From an uncultured Clostridia bacterium (GTDB taxonomy: Bacteria; Bacillota; Clostridia; TANB77; CAG-465), in the NCBI GenBank assembly GCA_944387375.1, contig CALXEQ010000002.1, positions 1 through 64,000 on the forward strand: DNA of 64,000 nt, written 5' to 3'. Positions 29,085-54,855 of this stretch are shown in pieces (positions within the stretch are counted from its first letter, which is position 1; every line of letters begins with the position of its first letter). The position numbers were made by a program, and so were the translations under genes. Below the pieces are notes generated by a model. The model worked only from the letters and a program-made list of their open reading frames with translations. It was not told the DNA's origin and ran no database searches.

Positions 29085-30563
29085 TTATAATATAATACAA
29101 ATTAAACCGCCACTACCTTCATTTATAATCTTTTGTAATGTCTCTTGCAATTTCATTTGAGCTTCGTCTGGCATTCTATATAACTTATTATGAAGCCCTT
29201 CATTAACAAGCTCATGTAATGATTTTCCAAATATATTAGACTCCCATATTTTAGCTGGATCATTTTCAAATTCAGATAATAAGTATTTAACTAGATCCTC
29301 AGACTGTTTTTCGCTGCCTACTATTGGCGAAACTTCAGTTTCTATATCTGCTCTAATCATATGAATTGATGGAGCCGAAGCCTTTAATTTTACGCCATAT
29401 TTATTTCCCTGTTTTACAATTTCTGGTTCTTCTAACTTTAATTCATCAATTCCTGGTGTTATTATTCCATAACCTTTAATTTTTACCTCTTCCATAGCCA
29501 TAGCTATTTTATCATAATCTGACTTTACTTGAGCAAAATTTCTAAGTAACTTAAATATATCCGCATCAGATTTTACTTCAAAATTTGACTCTTCTGTAAG
29601 TATTCTATAAAATACATTTGGTGTAATATCCATCTCTACTTTCACTTTTCCATCTTCCATATTTGCATCTTTTAAAAATACCTTATCAAATACATCATTT
29701 GTGTTTATATCTGATAAAATATCATTTATTTCTCTTATAGAATAATTTTCATCAAATTTTTCTTTTACTAAATTAATAATATCTTGTTTTAGCCAATGAT
29801 CTAAATCTAAAATACTAAACCAATCAGGAAGATCAAAACCAATTTCACTTACAGGAAATTCTTCCAATACACGTTCAAATACATTAGTAAAATCTTCTTC
29901 TTGCATATTCTCTATATCAACGCTAATTACTCTAGAATTATATTTTTCAGACAACTCTTTTTCTAGCTCTTTTGCCTCTTTTCCATTAGGTCTTATAGAA
30001 TTTAAAAGAACAACATAAGGCTTATTTATTTGCTTTAATTCTCTTATTACCCTTTCTTCTGCCTCAATATAATTTTCTCTTGGAATATCTGTAATACTTC
30101 CATCTGTAGTTACCACAATTCCTATTGTAGAATGATCATTTATTACTTTTTTTGTACCAATTTCTGCTGCTTTAGAAAAAGGAATTTCCTCTTGAGACCA
30201 AGGAGTTCTAACCATTCTTGGCATATCATTTTCTAAATGTCCAACCGCTCCCTCTACTAGATATCCTACACAATCAACAAGTCTTGTTTTAAACCTTACA
30301 TTATTATCTAAACATATCTCAACCGATTCATTTGGAACAAATTTAGGTTCTGTAGTCATTATTGTCTTTCCTGATGCACTTTGTGGTAACTCATCCATTG
30401 CCCTATCTTTTTTATATTCATTTTCAATATTTGGAATAACAAAATTTTCCATAAATTTTTTTATAAAAGTAGATTTTCCTGTTCTTACTGGTCCAACAAC
30501 ACCAATATATATATCACCATTTGTTCTTTTTGATATATCTTTATATATTTCTATATCCTTCAT
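29085..30563 (-). CDS. spoIVA: Stage IV sporulation protein A, spore coat scaffold ATPase
   Basis: A 492-residue protein, the same length as B. subtilis SpoIVA. It polymerises on the forespore surface by ATP hydrolysis, forming the basement layer of the coat; in Bacillus it is held to the membrane by the SpoVM peptide. Walker A GPVRTGKST is at 24-32. The TRAFAC-type switch region includes TRLVDCVGYLVEGAVGH and the sensor-like TTDGSITDIPRENY. The C terminus (EGSGGLICIIL) is the membrane-proximal end. It marks the organism as a spore former. GGAGG precedes the ATG, and a sigma-E-like promoter lies upstream. Confidence 0.98.
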   Translation of the reverse strand: MKDIEIYKDISKRTNGDIYIGVVGPVRTGKSTFIKKFMENFVIPNIENEYKKDRAMDELPQSASGKTIMTTEPKFVPNESVEICLDNNVRFKTRLVDCVGYLVEGAVGHLENDMPRMVRTPWSQEEIPFSKAAEIGTKKVINDHSTIGIVVTTDGSITDIPRENYIEAEERVIRELKQINKPYVVLLNSIRPNGKEAKELEKELSEKYNSRVISVDIENMQEEDFTNVFERVLEEFPVSEIGFDLPDWFSILDLDHWLKQDIINLVKEKFDENYSIREINDILSDINTNDVFDKVFLKDANMEDGKVKVEMDITPNVFYRILTEESNFEVKSDADIFKLLRNFAQVKSDYDKIAMAMEEVKIKGYGIITPGIDELKLEEPEIVKQGNKYGVKLKASAPSIHMIRADIETEVSPIVGSEKQSEDLVKYLLSEFENDPAKIWESNIFGKSLHELVNEGLHNKLYRMPDEAQMKLQETLQKIINEGSGGLICIIL

Positions 30564-36626: not shown

Positions 36627-36812
36627 ATGGCAAAATGCGAAATTTGTGATAAAGACGTAACATATTCACTACAAGTGAGTCACTCTCACAGAAGAACAGC
36701 TAGAACATTTAAACCTAACGTTCAATCAGTAAGAGTTAATATCGACGGAACACCTAAAAAAATGAATGTTTGTACTAGATGTTTAAGAAGTGGAAAAGTA
36801 GAAAGAGTATAA
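36627..36812 (+). CDS. rpmB: 50S ribosomal protein L28
   Basis: A 61-residue large-subunit protein, typical bacterial L28: SHSHRRTARTFKPN...VRV. It is the zinc-binding (C+) form, with CEIC near the start and CTRC near the end. AAAGGGGGC precedes the ATG. Monocistronic, between its own promoter and terminator. Confidence 0.97.
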   Translation: MAKCEICDKDVTYSLQVSHSHRRTARTFKPNVQSVRVNIDGTPKKMNVCTRCLRSGKVERV

Positions 36813-36861: not shown

Positions 36862-36889
36862 AAAAAAGAAGAGATTTATTCTCTTCTTA
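36862..36889 (-). terminator. Terminator of the micropeptide unit
   Basis: Minus strand AAGAAGAGA, loop of five, TCTCTTCTT, then a U run, 35 bases past the stop of the 22-residue gene. A proper terminator supports this stretch being a real minus-strand transcript. Confidence 0.82.
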
Positions 36890-36923: not shown

Positions 36924-36992
36924 TTATATTTTAAATATAGTTTTTAATATCATTTTCATAAATCTTCCAGGTTTATATATTACTACTTTCAT
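36924..36992 (-). CDS. spoVM: SpoVM-like 22-residue amphipathic micropeptide
   Basis: Reading the minus strand between rpmB and nth gives an ATG at 36992 with a perfect AGGAGG eight bases upstream and a TAA at 36924-36926. The 22-residue product starts MKVVIYKPGRF and continues MKMILKTIFKI. Against B. subtilis SpoVM (MKFYTIKLPKF..., 26 residues) it keeps M1-K2, K7, a basic residue at 10, F11, I15 and a basic residue at 17; the proline is at 8 instead of 9. SpoVM is the curvature-sensing helix that holds SpoIVA on the forespore, and spoIVA is present 6.4 kb away. Orthology is inferred, not proven; an unrelated amphipathic peptide is the alternative. Confidence 0.68.
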   Translation of the reverse strand: MKVVIYKPGRFMKMILKTIFKI

Positions 36993-37006
36993 ATATTATT
37001 CCTCCT

Positions 37007-37159
37007 TTAACAAAATAGCCATGTTATTCCAAAAATAGCTATTGCTATAGCACATATTGCTACCCAGCCCCAAAAAGGAAGAATAATACTTACCCCTACT
37101 CCTATTCCAAAAGCTAATAAAAATAATCCTATTGTCTTTCTAAAACCACTTGTAAACAT
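37007..37159 (-). CDS. 50-residue membrane peptide upstream of the SpoVM-like gene
   Basis: ATG 37159 lies behind GGGAGG (minus strand) and the frame ends at TAA 37007-37009, whose bases overlap the AAGGAGG site of the next gene. The product (MFTSGFRKTIGLFLLAFGIG..., ending ITWLFC) has two hydrophobic spans at about 10-27 and 33-49, separated by PFWGW, with a basic N terminus, so a hairpin membrane protein is likely. I do not recognise the family by name. The strong ribosome binding sites, tight coupling and shared terminator argue for a real two-gene unit. Confidence 0.68.
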   Translation of the reverse strand: MFTSGFRKTIGLFLLAFGIGVGVSIILPFWGWVAICAIAIAIFGITWLFC

Positions 37160-37173
37160 ATTTATCCTCCCTT

Positions 37174-37202
37174 TTGACAAACAACAGAAAATGTTGTAAA
37201 AT
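37174..37202 (+). promoter_or_regulatory. Promoter of nth
   Basis: TTGACA (37174-37179), 17-bp spacer, TAAAAT (37197-37202). Confidence 0.68.
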
Positions 37203-37211
37203 GACTACTAT

Positions 37212-37239
37212 ATACTATGATTTGGGTGAATTAATGTGA
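37212..37239 (-). promoter_or_regulatory. Possible sigma-E promoter of the micropeptide unit
   Basis: Minus strand TCACATT (37233-37239), 13-bp spacer, CATAGTAT (37212-37219), close to kmATATT-(13-15)-CATACAnT. It overlaps the divergent nth start region. Confidence 0.35.
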
Positions 37240-37883
37240 TTAAAAAATACAAAAAGCAAACAAAAAAACAAAGTGAAGAAATAATTAAAATATTAATAAA
37301 TGAATATAAAGATGCTAAATGTGGACTAGATTATACTACTCCTTTTTCTCTTGTTGTAGCCTTAATTCTTGCTGCTCAATGTACAGACAAAAGAGTAAAT
37401 GAAATAACTCCTATTTTCTTTAGCAAATTTAAAACAATTGAAGATGTAAAAAATTCTAATATAAATGATGTAATTAATATTATTAGACCATGTGGATTTT
37501 TTAAAAATAAAGCTCATTCAATTATTGAAAGTGCAAGAATTATTTGTGACGATTTTAATGGTATTGTACCAGATACTATGGATGAATTAACTAAATTATG
37601 TGGAATTGGTAGAAAATCTGCAAATATAATATTGCAGGAATGCTTTGGTAAAGTAGTTGGAATCGCTGTTGATACACACGTTACTAGAATATCTAGGAAA
37701 ATTGGATTTTCAAATGGAAAAAGTCAATTAGAAATTGAGAACGAACTTTTGAAACGTTTTGATAAAAAATACTGGGGAAAAATAAACCATGTACTTGTAC
37801 TTCATGGAAGAGCAGTATGTATTGCAAATAGACCAAAATGTGATATATGCCCAATAAATAATTTATGCAATAAGAACGACTAA
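37236..37883 (+). CDS. nth: Endonuclease III
   Basis: A 215-residue base-excision repair glycosylase/AP lyase that removes oxidised pyrimidines. The helix-hairpin-helix is LCGIGRKSAN with the catalytic Lys; the catalytic Asp is in VDTHVTR. The [4Fe-4S] loop C-x6-C-x2-C-x5-C (CIANRPKCDICPINNLC) is intact. The first codon is GTG at 37236 with a weak GGGTGA site; the ATG two bases earlier is in another frame and meets TGA at once. Confidence 0.97.
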   Translation: MIKKYKKQTKKQSEEIIKILINEYKDAKCGLDYTTPFSLVVALILAAQCTDKRVNEITPIFFSKFKTIEDVKNSNINDVINIIRPCGFFKNKAHSIIESARIICDDFNGIVPDTMDELTKLCGIGRKSANIILQECFGKVVGIAVDTHVTRISRKIGFSNGKSQLEIENELLKRFDKKYWGKINHVLVLHGRAVCIANRPKCDICPINNLCNKND

Positions 37884-49944: not shown

Positions 49945-52900
49945 TTAAATCTGTTTTTGTTTTTTATTTTTTATTACTACATAAGTAATTCCTAGTATAC
50001 TAATTAAAGCTATACATACAGTAGCAACTAATGCTATATCTCCTGTATTAACTATTTCAAAGATTGTTTCTTTTGCCTTTACATCAAATACTGCACCAAC
50101 ACTACCTTCTTCTATTTCATATCCTTCTGGCGCTTGTATTTCTGTAAATACATATCTACCATATGGTACATTTTCTATTATATACTCACCATTTTCATTA
50201 GTTACTGCATTTTCAACTAAAACTTCCCCTGTTATTGCATCTTTTATTGTAAATGTACATCCAGGTAATAATTTACCAGTTTCTGAATCTTTTTTAATAA
50301 TTGTTAATTTATCTCCAACAAGTCTTCTATAATAATATATAATTATTTGCTCTTCTTCTTTGTAAACACCTTCTTTGTTATATGGTATTTTTTCTTCTAC
50401 AAGCTCATATATATCAAAGTCTTCTGTATATCTGTCATTAATTTCTTCTAACCTATCTGTAGTATCATATGGTTCACCAATATCATCTTCATATTCTTCA
50501 TTATCATAGATAATCTCATCTGTATCAATATCTTTGTGTATTACTATTATTTTTCCTTGAATTTTTGGATCTCCAACTATAGCTACATTTAACTTTTCTG
50601 TTACATTAACTTCAATATAATTTGGATCAATTTCATGATCTTGAGGTGCTTCTATTTCTTTTAAATAATATGTTCCATATGGCAAATCAATATCATCTAT
50701 ACCATTTTGTCCTGTTGTAAATATAATATCCTCATATTCATCTGTTCCTATAGCTTTTTGCTGTAATGGAATATATTCGCCATTATTATTTTTATAATAT
50801 ACTTGATATTTTGCACCACTTAATCCATATTCTTGAGCAAATTTGTTAAATTCTTCAACATTATTCTCTTCTACTATTTTATCTATATATTCTTTATTAG
50901 CCTCATAAATTTTTTGAGTAACTTTTAATAAATTTAAATTTCCCATCTTTATTGGATTGTCAATAGCCTGTCCATTGTTGATAGTTATTATTTCTTTATC
51001 TACATTTGATGATGGACTAAAAGTAAATTCATACTTATTAGTATCTATTTCAAAAGGTAAATTTTCAACCTCTATTTCTTTTACATAATAATCTCCCACT
51101 GGAATATCTGCATCAATAATTACCTTTCCATCATTTACTGATACTACTTGTAATAATGAATCTTTTTTAATCACTACATTTCCTGTAGTATATGATTTGA
51201 TATCTTCATTTGCATATAATCCAAATTTTACTCTAGATTTAGTATCATCTCCTATATTAGAAAATTCACTTTTCCCAAACGTTTTATTAAATGTTAACTC
51301 ATATGGTACTCTTTCATTTTTATAATTTAAATCTACAGTGTAATCATCTAATACTATTAGTTTTCCTTCTGAATCTGTTCCATTAGTTCTATAATCTAAA
51401 GTTACATCTTCAACATTGTCACTTAATTTGTATCCTGTTGGTACACTTATTTCTTTTACTGTATATTCTCCTAAATATAAATAATCTGTTGAAGCAACAC
51501 CATTTTCATCTGTAGTTATATCTACATATTGATCTTTATACATTCTAATTGTTCCATCAGCTGTAGTTATGTTTTCTTTTGCTGTTACTCTATATGTAAC
51601 TCCTTTTAAGCCTCTTTCTTCATAAACTGGTGTAAATATCTCAAGTCCTGTTGTAGGATCTGTTGATTGACTTACACCTGTAACAACTTCCGCCATTTTT
51701 GTAATCCTTATTTTTGCCTTTTGTGGATCATCATATTGTAATTGTGTTACTACTGGTTCTTCTTCATCATTTTCAAATACTGCATCCTCTAGTTCAAACT
51801 CTAAGTCATTCAAATGATATCCATTAGGTGGTGTAATCTCTACCAATTTATATTTTCCTATAGGCAATGGTTCAGGTGTTGTAAACTCACCATTTTCACT
51901 TGTTTTAAATTCGGATATTTCTCCTTGTGGATAGGTCATCATAGTTACGTAATCATTATCCTCATAACTCCAAATTTTGTATGTAGTATTTGCAACTGGT
52001 ATTGTTTTTAAAGTCTCTGCATCCTTTTTTACAACCCTAACATGGTATTCAATTGGATTTTCTTCAGTTATAAAATATAAATTTAATTCATTTTCATAAA
52101 TATATAATGGGACCGGATCTATTAACTTATATCCTGCCTCTCTTGCTTCTTCTGACTCTGTTATTGTATACCAACCATATGGTATATCCTCAAAGCAAGC
52201 ATGTCCATTTTCATCTATTGTAGCTTCATATACTGTCTTTCCATTTGATGAATCTAAAGTTAGATATAATAAGCAACCTTCTGCTGGATCTGAGTCTGTA
52301 CTATCATCACTATGTAATGATTTTATTATATCTACTCTTCCTTTCATAACCAATTCTTTTGAAGTTATTGTATGACTTGTTCTTTCAACAGTTTGCTCTT
52401 TTGGATCTTGCGAAACTGTATAAACATTTTCGTCTATTAAGTATCCTTCTGGTGCTTTTGTCTCTTTTACATAGTATGTTCCTACTAAATACCATCCACT
52501 TGTTGCAAGCCATGTACCATTTGCTTCATTTTTTGCAATTGTTACAGTTTCTACTGCATCAGTACAAGCTTCATCTCTATAAATTGTATATTCTGCACCT
52601 GCAAGTGTTGCATCTCCTTGTGTTGTTGTTCCTGTTTCAATATCTTCTTTATATATAGTTATTTGCATCTTTTTAGCTACATCTGTCAAATTATATGTAT
52701 AAGGTTCTCTTTGAGTCTTATCTATTTGAATATACTCATCAAAAGTTGTTTTTCTTACTGTTTCATCTTCAACATAAAATTCTCCGTTATATGCTGTATC
52801 TGGTATCTGTACTTCTTGTACTCTATATTTACCATAAGGTAAGTTTTCTATTATACAATATCCATTTTCATCTGTAACTGTTGAATAATATACTTCTGGT

Positions 52901-54822
52901 TCTTCATCATTAATTGTAGATATTAATGTTGCACTAAACATAGCTCCTGCTAAATTTTGTTTTAGTGTTGAATCAGTTTGTTCCAAATATTTAGTAATTT
53001 CTATACTATTTCTTATAACTGTCTCTTTTACTATTCTTTCTATTTGCACCAAATTAGCATTTACATCTACAATCTCGTCTTTATCAACACTAACATGATA
53101 AACAGTATCATCAAGTAAATATCCCTCTGGTGCTTTTGTTTCCTTTATATAAAAATCTTCTCTATATGTATACACATTATTTTTATAATCTACTACATTA
53201 TATGTCTTTGATGTAGCATTACCATTTTCATCTAATACTAAAGTCTCAAGTAAATTAGTACAAGCACTATCTAAATATATTGAATATTCTGCACCTTTAA
53301 AAGTAGCATCTCCTTGTGTTATTTTACCTGTTTCTACATCCTCTTTATTAACGGTAATATTTACTTTTTTGTAATGTGGAATAACATTAACAGGTGTATT
53401 AGTTAAATCTACTCCATTAATTACAGTATGAGGTTGGTTTTGAAACACTTGTCCTTCAACAGAATCACTATCAACAATACAATCTATAATTAAACTATAT
53501 GTTTCACCATGATATTTCATAACATTTGCTAAATAATTACTAGAGAAATTAAATTTAACGGTATGTGATGAGCTGTCATAGCTTAAGCTACCTTGTCTTG
53601 TAATATCATTTCCATCTTGATCTACTACGCGAGCTGAAACATACTCTACTTCTTTTGGCAATTTATCTACAAATCCAAAAGAAGAATATTTCATATATCC
53701 ATTTCCACCTTGTCTTCTATCTTGAACTTGTTGATCTACTTTATATTGTATTTTGTCTCCTACAAATACTTCTATTCCATCTGACCAAACTGAGTCGTTT
53801 TGCTCTTTAACATATTTAACCGGATTTGGTGCAGTTGCTCCAATAGGTCCTATAAATGGGCAAAACCAAAAGTCATGACTTAGAGTTCTAAATTTAAATA
53901 TTCCATTACTTGAATATTCTTTTGTTGATATAAATGTTTTTTCAAAATCACCTACGTTCCATGTATCTGAACAATTTTGAGAATCTAGACCTACACCCCA
54001 CATATATGAAGTGGTACTATTCCAGTTTTCCCAAAGTGAACGAGCTGCTTTATCTGCTCCATTATTTCCACCAGCAAAATTAGTAAATGTAGTTTGAGCA
54101 CCATTTACTAAATAATATGCACGTGTTGTATTAGCTGAAGAAATGCCTTCATAACTATTTGTTGATCCCCAAGACCAATACATTTCTTTTTTGCCAATAT
54201 TAGTATTTGTTCCACTATATACAAAATTATATGTAATATCTGAACCACCAGTATCAAATAAAGTAAGTCCTTTATAAAAGTTATTATGAAAAGCTATCGC
54301 ACCATATTCTGTATAGTTTACAGACAATTCTCCTACTGCACTATTTCTAGGATTTCCTTCTATTGTATTAGGTGCTTTATGTATAGTAATATTTACTAAA
54401 CAGTCTACAGCTCTATCATTATATGTTGCTACATTTTTATATCTAACAGTAAAAGATTCTCCACCATTAAATCTTTTATTATAATTATATCTAGCATCTC
54501 CTGTATTATGTGTATTGTACCTTTCATCAGGTTTTATATATACAGTATATCCAGGTAAATAATTGTTATTAAAAGAATCTAATTTACCGTTACCATAAAA
54601 CACAAAATCATTTGTATTTTTAGATTCTAACACTATTTCATGCTTAACAGGATTTCCATCTTTATCATATGCATTCTGCTCAAACGAATGATCAAAATCT
54701 TTGAAAAATGTATTACTATCAACATAAGTTATAGCTGGTTGCGCAGCATTTACATTTTTTCCAAAAATTGCCATCAAGCATAATAAAAAAAAGCATGAAA
54801 TAAGCAATTTCAATTTTTTCAT
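49945..54822 (-). CDS. Giant SpaA-domain surface protein with NTGD-type tail
   Basis: A 1625-residue exported protein. Residues 1-26 are a signal peptide ending NVNA-A. A unique head (about 30-335) is followed by an isopeptide D2-like domain (about 336-480, PVKYVKEQ...VGDKIQYKV). About ten SpaA/Cna-B-type domains follow (about 492-1420), with E-box motifs such as YYVKETKAPEGYLI. Next are a MucBP-like segment (about 1424-1504) and a last SpaA domain. Many E-box domains self-lock by Lys-Asn/Asp isopeptide bonds; that is expected here. The tail is NTGD (1592-1595), a hydrophobic span and KNKKQKQI: arranged like a sorting signal but without LPxTG. ATG 54822 has AGGAGGG upstream; the in-frame ATG at 54849 precedes that site. 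Paralog of the next upstream gene. Confidence 0.95.
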   Translation of the reverse strand: MKKLKLLISCFFLLCLMAIFGKNVNAAQPAITYVDSNTFFKDFDHSFEQNAYDKDGNPVKHEIVLESKNTNDFVFYGNGKLDSFNNNYLPGYTVYIKPDERYNTHNTGDARYNYNKRFNGGESFTVRYKNVATYNDRAVDCLVNITIHKAPNTIEGNPRNSAVGELSVNYTEYGAIAFHNNFYKGLTLFDTGGSDITYNFVYSGTNTNIGKKEMYWSWGSTNSYEGISSANTTRAYYLVNGAQTTFTNFAGGNNGADKAARSLWENWNSTTSYMWGVGLDSQNCSDTWNVGDFEKTFISTKEYSSNGIFKFRTLSHDFWFCPFIGPIGATAPNPVKYVKEQNDSVWSDGIEVFVGDKIQYKVDQQVQDRRQGGNGYMKYSSFGFVDKLPKEVEYVSARVVDQDGNDITRQGSLSYDSSSHTVKFNFSSNYLANVMKYHGETYSLIIDCIVDSDSVEGQVFQNQPHTVINGVDLTNTPVNVIPHYKKVNITVNKEDVETGKITQGDATFKGAEYSIYLDSACTNLLETLVLDENGNATSKTYNVVDYKNNVYTYREDFYIKETKAPEGYLLDDTVYHVSVDKDEIVDVNANLVQIERIVKETVIRNSIEITKYLEQTDSTLKQNLAGAMFSATLISTINDEEPEVYYSTVTDENGYCIIENLPYGKYRVQEVQIPDTAYNGEFYVEDETVRKTTFDEYIQIDKTQREPYTYNLTDVAKKMQITIYKEDIETGTTTQGDATLAGAEYTIYRDEACTDAVETVTIAKNEANGTWLATSGWYLVGTYYVKETKAPEGYLIDENVYTVSQDPKEQTVERTSHTITSKELVMKGRVDIIKSLHSDDSTDSDPAEGCLLYLTLDSSNGKTVYEATIDENGHACFEDIPYGWYTITESEEAREAGYKLIDPVPLYIYENELNLYFITEENPIEYHVRVVKKDAETLKTIPVANTTYKIWSYEDNDYVTMMTYPQGEISEFKTSENGEFTTPEPLPIGKYKLVEITPPNGYHLNDLEFELEDAVFENDEEEPVVTQLQYDDPQKAKIRITKMAEVVTGVSQSTDPTTGLEIFTPVYEERGLKGVTYRVTAKENITTADGTIRMYKDQYVDITTDENGVASTDYLYLGEYTVKEISVPTGYKLSDNVEDVTLDYRTNGTDSEGKLIVLDDYTVDLNYKNERVPYELTFNKTFGKSEFSNIGDDTKSRVKFGLYANEDIKSYTTGNVVIKKDSLLQVVSVNDGKVIIDADIPVGDYYVKEIEVENLPFEIDTNKYEFTFSPSSNVDKEIITINNGQAIDNPIKMGNLNLLKVTQKIYEANKEYIDKIVEENNVEEFNKFAQEYGLSGAKYQVYYKNNNGEYIPLQQKAIGTDEYEDIIFTTGQNGIDDIDLPYGTYYLKEIEAPQDHEIDPNYIEVNVTEKLNVAIVGDPKIQGKIIVIHKDIDTDEIIYDNEEYEDDIGEPYDTTDRLEEINDRYTEDFDIYELVEEKIPYNKEGVYKEEEQIIIYYYRRLVGDKLTIIKKDSETGKLLPGCTFTIKDAITGEVLVENAVTNENGEYIIENVPYGRYVFTEIQAPEGYEIEEGSVGAVFDVKAKETIFEIVNTGDIALVATVCIALISILGITYVVIKNKKQKQI

Positions 54823-54855
54823 ATATAACCCTCCTACAAAATATTTCATATTTTA

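Follow-up and report, generated by a model that had tools for sequence, protein, structure and literature searches.

SpoVM of Bacillus subtilis (PF08183; structure 2MVH) is a short basic amphipathic peptide by which the spore coat is anchored. Whether clostridia without detectable SpoVM encode distant versions was left open by Galperin et al. 2012 (PMC3533761). In C. difficile, spoVM lies beside rpmB and shares a sigma-E-controlled transcript with the gene directly upstream, CD25622, which encodes a 50-aa protein (Ribis et al. 2017, PMC5607322). CD25622 was reported to be conserved exclusively or mainly in Peptostreptococcaceae, and a polar CD25622 insertion caused only the same mild 3–5-fold loss of heat resistance as a spoVM mutation (PMC5607322). 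The same work described Pro9 as the one SpoVM residue with full conservation and as being needed for the recognition of curved membranes.

In this study, a locus of this kind was analysed in the window, the whole 64,000-nt stretch of DNA from an uncultured Clostridia bacterium, a putative spore former of the gut. A preliminary description had proposed two unlisted micropeptide genes here, the shorter one SpoVM-like, and had suggested that the pair could be a new forespore-anchoring module. The genes were upheld but the novelty was not, as C. difficile was already reported to have this arrangement in 2017 (CD25622–spoVM, PMC5607322). The pair is thus already known in kind; what is new is that the upstream partner is spread class-wide and persists in a family that lacks SpoVM, and that Pro9 is not universal. 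The window locus resembles CD25622–spoVM in its membrane-type gene of about 50 codons directly upstream of spoVM, the adjoining rpmB, the lack of annotation of the small genes and the presence of spoIVA in the genome, and differs in that its SpoVM has Pro8-Gly9 whereas the C. difficile type has Pro9. The 50-residue product (50-mer) is likened to CD25622 by size, position and neighbours, while its sequence homology extends to the partners in 15 Clostridium records. The 22-residue product (22-mer) shares with B. subtilis SpoVM the M-K start, K7, a proline at position 8 or 9, basic 10, F11, I15 and basic 17, as well as a nearby rpmB and a spoIVA gene in the genome; this residue pattern, with the proline one place early, had been read correctly from the start. 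It differs in its length (22 versus 26 residues, without the C-terminal tail) and in having Pro8-Gly9 instead of Leu8-Pro9. The window gene, unlike that of B. subtilis, is convergent with rpmB, is preceded by a membrane protein gene and falls below PF08183 detection.

Organisation and conservation of the gene pair

Table 1. Coordinates of the spoVM unit, its signals and related genes in the window
Feature	Position	Strand	Remark
50-codon gene	37010..37159, stop 37007-37009	-	MFTSGFRKTIGLFLLAFGIGVGVSIILPFWGWVAICAIAIAIFGITWLFC; small membrane protein, CD25622-like by size and position
22-codon gene	36927..36992, stop 36924-36926	-	MKVVIYKPGRFMKMILKTIFKI; divergent SpoVM
Shine-Dalgarno GGGAGG of 50-codon gene	37166..37171	-	kept in relatives
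Shine-Dalgarno AGGAGG of spoVM	37001..37006	-	kept in relatives
Intrinsic terminator 3' of spoVM	36866..36888	-	9-pair stem and T tail
Candidate sigma-E-type -10, CATAGTAT	37212..37219	-	promoter function inferred
rpmB (ribosomal protein L28)	36627..36812	+	convergent neighbour, as is usual for spoVM; 112 bp from 22-codon gene
nth (endonuclease III)	37236..37883	+	divergent neighbour
spoIVA (coat ATPase, expected SpoVM partner)	29085..30563	-	TIGR02836, 752 bits

The two minus-strand frames lie between rpmB and nth as first described, and each has a strong Shine-Dalgarno sequence (Table 1). The TAA of the 50-codon gene directly abuts the AGGAGG of spoVM (TAAAGGAGGA), in agreement with the proposed stop/RBS coupling, and the strong terminator expected to close the unit was recovered, with one stem–T-tail structure found against 0.1 in shuffled sequences. 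An alternative TTG start seven codons upstream of the 50-codon gene is possible; the alignment of relatives begins at the ATG.

The element CATANTAT was present 59–69 nt before the start of the 50-codon gene in 29/30 aligned loci from the window's genus and family, and CATACAAT was present 43–47 nt before the start in two genomes of family f5. Both elements are consistent with candidate sigma-E -10 sequences. A conserved block separates the candidate -10 from the start of the 50-codon gene. Its reading as a regulator site was rejected, as it is the reverse complement of the sigma-A-type promoter facing nth. This strong promoter (TTGACA-17-TAAAAT, window 37174-37202, plus strand) overlaps, on the opposite strand, the 50-codon gene in its leader and the region of its ribosome site.

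Separate searches of the 57 nearest genomes with each product recovered the 50-mer from 47 and the 22-mer from 40 of them. Both frames were intact and adjacent in 26 of the 27 same-genus genomes, with a gap of 9–26 nt and the ribosome sites kept, and close pairs gave a pN/pS of 0.27–0.29, a rough ratio with fairly high pS. This degree of preservation is beyond chance, and both frames are, as judged from comparative evidence, real genes under protein-level purifying selection, kept as a pair in close relatives. The pair was present in all five families of the window's order; the sole genus member without it (G015) retains spoIVA. Neither product was named by any Pfam or NCBIfam model, so that calling them unlisted micropeptide genes was fair. 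Matches of the products or of a 17-member partner alignment to DUF3784, SepX/GlpR, YtaF and daptide models in Pfam and NCBIfam were marginal and inconsistent (E 0.003–0.1) and were rejected. A reading of the pair as a toxin or RiPP was likewise ruled out by conservation and locus. Two irregular cases were observed: in G014 (L002) the partner is identical to that of the window, with a different upstream region and nth further off, and in two relatives (L092 and L093) the partner is read in another frame beyond residue 43 and continues into the spoVM start, through an indel or a sequencing error.

Identity of the 22-residue product and its proline

The homology of the 22-mer to SpoVM rests on intermediates, as the peptide alone gave no match to PF08183 and no pairwise match to 2MVH. 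Profile A7 was constructed from 37 clostridial SpoVM-like peptides of a class-wide search, with the window's order and B. subtilis SpoVM excluded; it has an element of circularity in that its members were first retrieved with an order profile. Against 177,635 PDB sequences, A7 placed B. subtilis SpoVM 2MVH on top (E 8e-4, colinear 1-20:1-20), followed by a P9A-type variant of SpoVM. Against the window's 1.54-Mb genome, the 22-mer was the sole good match (E 1e-5; next 0.89). A7 therefore bridges 2MVH and the 22-mer, the first SpoVM call proved right, and no better spoVM was found elsewhere in this genome. In the sister family f3 of the same order, the syntenic peptide MTVVVKKVPKFLRGIVKLIFGIKD lies behind the same 50-mer, mostly beside rpmB, and its only PDB match was 2MVH (E 0.3, colinear). 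Peptides of the KAPKF and KMPGM types were found in two further families of the order, also behind the partner.

PF08183 gave no match in the window's genome and none over its cut-off in the 57 relatives. The SpoVM of Clostridium liquoris (L199), which has the same arrangement, was matched by PF08183 (E 0.003) but likewise stayed below that cut-off (18.0 against 20.6), and the miss is thus a limit of a too-narrow model. The order-only SpoVM profile A3 missed 2MVH in the PDB and gave a weak match to piscidin (E 2). K2, I15 and K17, which are functional residues in B. subtilis, are present in the 22-mer; position 6 is Tyr and is variable in clostridia. The adjacency of spoVM and rpmB was found in many relatives and in the 15 Clostridium records.

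The presence of spoIVA in the window, claimed earlier, was confirmed with TIGR02836, and the gene was found in 53/57 relatives. In G029, G042 and G054, spoIVA and SpoVM are both missing. A spoIVA in two pieces, from a frameshift or an assembly break, was seen in G037, G046 and G051. The window's genome also encodes spo0A (336 bits, over the cut-off) and a SigE-like factor (326 bits, just below the cut-off of 348.6), and contains a sporulation-sigma-like frame with one in-frame TAG (G000:C3:212280-212960).

Based on the colinear A7 match, the neighbouring rpmB and the spoIVA of the window, the 22-mer is assigned as a divergent SpoVM. Short basic amphipathic helices are common, and an unrelated peptide of the toxin or phenol-soluble-modulin-like type could resemble SpoVM by chance, as the weak piscidin match of the order-only profile might suggest. 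This explanation is extremely improbable and is largely refuted by the colinear series that leads, at a single syntenic spot by rpmB, from KPGRF in the window through KAPKF and KVPKF in sister families to B. subtilis SpoVM, by the single copy of the 22-mer per genome and by the joint absence of SpoVM and SpoIVA from the three genomes named above.

The 22-mer has Pro8-Gly9 and hence no Pro9, as do the SpoVMs of the window's family and the majority of those in f5; the swap also occurs in several other clostridial families. Among 89 clostridial SpoVM sites outside the order, Pro9 was present in 75, Pro8 only in 10 and neither in 4, and 20 of the sites have Pro8 and Pro9 together. All four cases with neither proline belong to family f22 (L216, L228, L242 and L265), whose SpoVM-like peptides are of the MKVVVVKASKFWQKILKSIFKI type. 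Pro9 is therefore, on the peptides aligned here, not universal among clostridial SpoVMs. As 20 sites have both residues, the loss of one proline from a Pro-Pro pair would be a simple route to the shift, a step that we infer. With Pro9 reported to be essential for curvature recognition (PMC5607322), the Gly9 that the window's family shares with most of f5, together with a partner in these genomes, may suggest that the window peptide is a SpoVM by descent that lost curvature sensing and serves only as a SpoIVA tether, with the 50-mer supplying localisation. We consider this quite unlikely, since Pro8 may give the same kink, most Pro9 SpoVMs have the partner too and some SpoVMs without Pro9 (G131) have none.

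Sequence and distribution of the partner

The invariant residues of the partner across the order are K8, T9, G18, G20, L27, P28, W32 and G44, and its hydrophobic halves flank a conserved P-x-W-G-W. These halves suggest a hairpin topology, and the two-span hairpin first proposed is plausible in this respect; AlphaFold2, however, gave one long continuous helix (residues 3-49, pLDDT 82) with a low pTM of 0.36. CmpA of B. subtilis is a short, soluble sporulation checkpoint protein in SpoVM/SpoIVA quality control. The 50-mer was compared with CmpA by general description and was rejected as its equivalent, being almost wholly hydrophobic.

To describe the distribution of the partner, an upstream partner was defined as a 36–100-aa frame with two hydrophobic halves that ends within -30 to 130 nt upstream of SpoVM, and 88 SpoVM sites were used, comprising all outside-order matches at E up to 0.0065, plus G328. 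The partner lay directly upstream at 70/88 of these sites compared with 38/1,392 random positions (2.7%); at a stricter threshold the figures were 60/88 and 1/1,391. The iterated order profile, run on 6,484 frames from SpoVM loci, recruited 59 frames, every one an upstream frame, and took up nothing from about 6,300 others or from shuffled copies, which argues that the partners are not just any hydrophobic frames. The partner, canonical SpoVM and convergent rpmB were found together in the 15 Clostridium records, including C. ljungdahlii, C. tyrobutyricum and C. magnum, whereas none of the eight SpoVM sites of family f11 had the partner. In contrast to the distribution reported for CD25622, partners of this kind occur in 23 of the 28 other clostridial families sampled, in addition to the window's order. 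By profile and position, the partner is near class-wide in Clostridia rather than family-specific, and the spoVM locus of clostridia usually includes this neighbour, which had been regarded as restricted to Peptostreptococcaceae. The profiles used here also recover distant SpoVM versions in many clostridial families.

The order's partner profile matched 28 genomes outside the order, with SpoVM directly downstream in 21 and absent in 7, all of which belong to family f25 (L180-L186). In f25 the partner gene is still convergent to rpmB. The partner–rpmB interval was read directly and contained no SpoVM frame after the partner, though several of these genomes are incomplete drafts. The SpoVM profile found nothing convincing elsewhere in the f25 genomes, with the best match at E 0.019 and carrying an internal stop. 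spoIVA was present in 6/7 of them. Family f25 is, on this reading of its draft genomes, a natural case of SpoVM loss, and its retention of the partner indicates that selection acts on the partner itself.

This retention beside rpmB also weighs against the view that the 50-mer lacks a function and is only a leader, keeping SpoVM expression low through translational coupling. Such a view would be in line with the close coupling in the window and relatives and with the mild phenotype shared by the polar CD25622 mutant and the spoVM mutant of C. difficile (PMC5607322). The protein-level purifying selection on the 50-mer (pN/pS about 0.27) and its order-wide invariant residues also count against it, and we regard it as highly improbable.

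Proposed role of the pair in sporulation

The unit is very probably a small sporulation operon, in which a CD25622-type membrane protein gene is followed by spoVM, acting by the following mechanism. Sigma-E in the mother cell would transcribe both genes during sporulation. The amphipathic helix of SpoVM, with its proline near position 8/9, would sit at shallow depth in the convex outer membrane of the forespore, where it would hold SpoIVA and thereby start coat assembly, as is established for B. subtilis and would apply here by analogy. The partner would be placed in the same membrane via one or two hydrophobic spans that meet at P-x-W-G-W and would most likely assist or stabilise the base layer formed by SpoVM and SpoIVA. 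This accessory role is deduced from the co-transcription in C. difficile, the gene pairing and the retention with SpoIVA, and the family that keeps the partner without SpoVM indicates that the partner has some function of its own. The partner may also matter little, as the defect caused in C. difficile by the polar CD25622 insertion did not exceed that of the spoVM insertion.

The membrane protease FtsH is often modulated by small membrane proteins, and SpoVM of B. subtilis is one of its substrates and inhibitors. From this background, the partner might be an FtsH-facing or quality-control factor that protects or delivers SpoVM rather than an aid to SpoIVA anchoring, and the translational coupling, with the TAA abutting the AGGAGG, suggests matched stoichiometry. 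However, f25 has the 50-mer without SpoVM and mostly with SpoIVA, so that the 50-mer cannot serve SpoVM alone; we hold this alternative to be unlikely. A further-reaching proposal is that the partner is an unrecognised, near class-wide sporulation protein that acts with SpoVM at the outer membrane of the forespore and, in the SpoVM-less family, takes over the tethering of SpoIVA, which is possible but rather doubtful. Several coat-anchoring proteins of Bacillus are missing from Clostridia, and SpoVM is almost dispensable in C. difficile; the partner of the preferred operon model is therefore a natural candidate for the missing redundancy. Family f25, with the partner and spoIVA but no spoVM, makes the redundancy idea directly testable. 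Elsewhere in the window, a 1634-aa SpaH/EbpB-type pilin-like surface protein is encoded at 49945-54849 on the minus strand (NF033902, over the cut-off).
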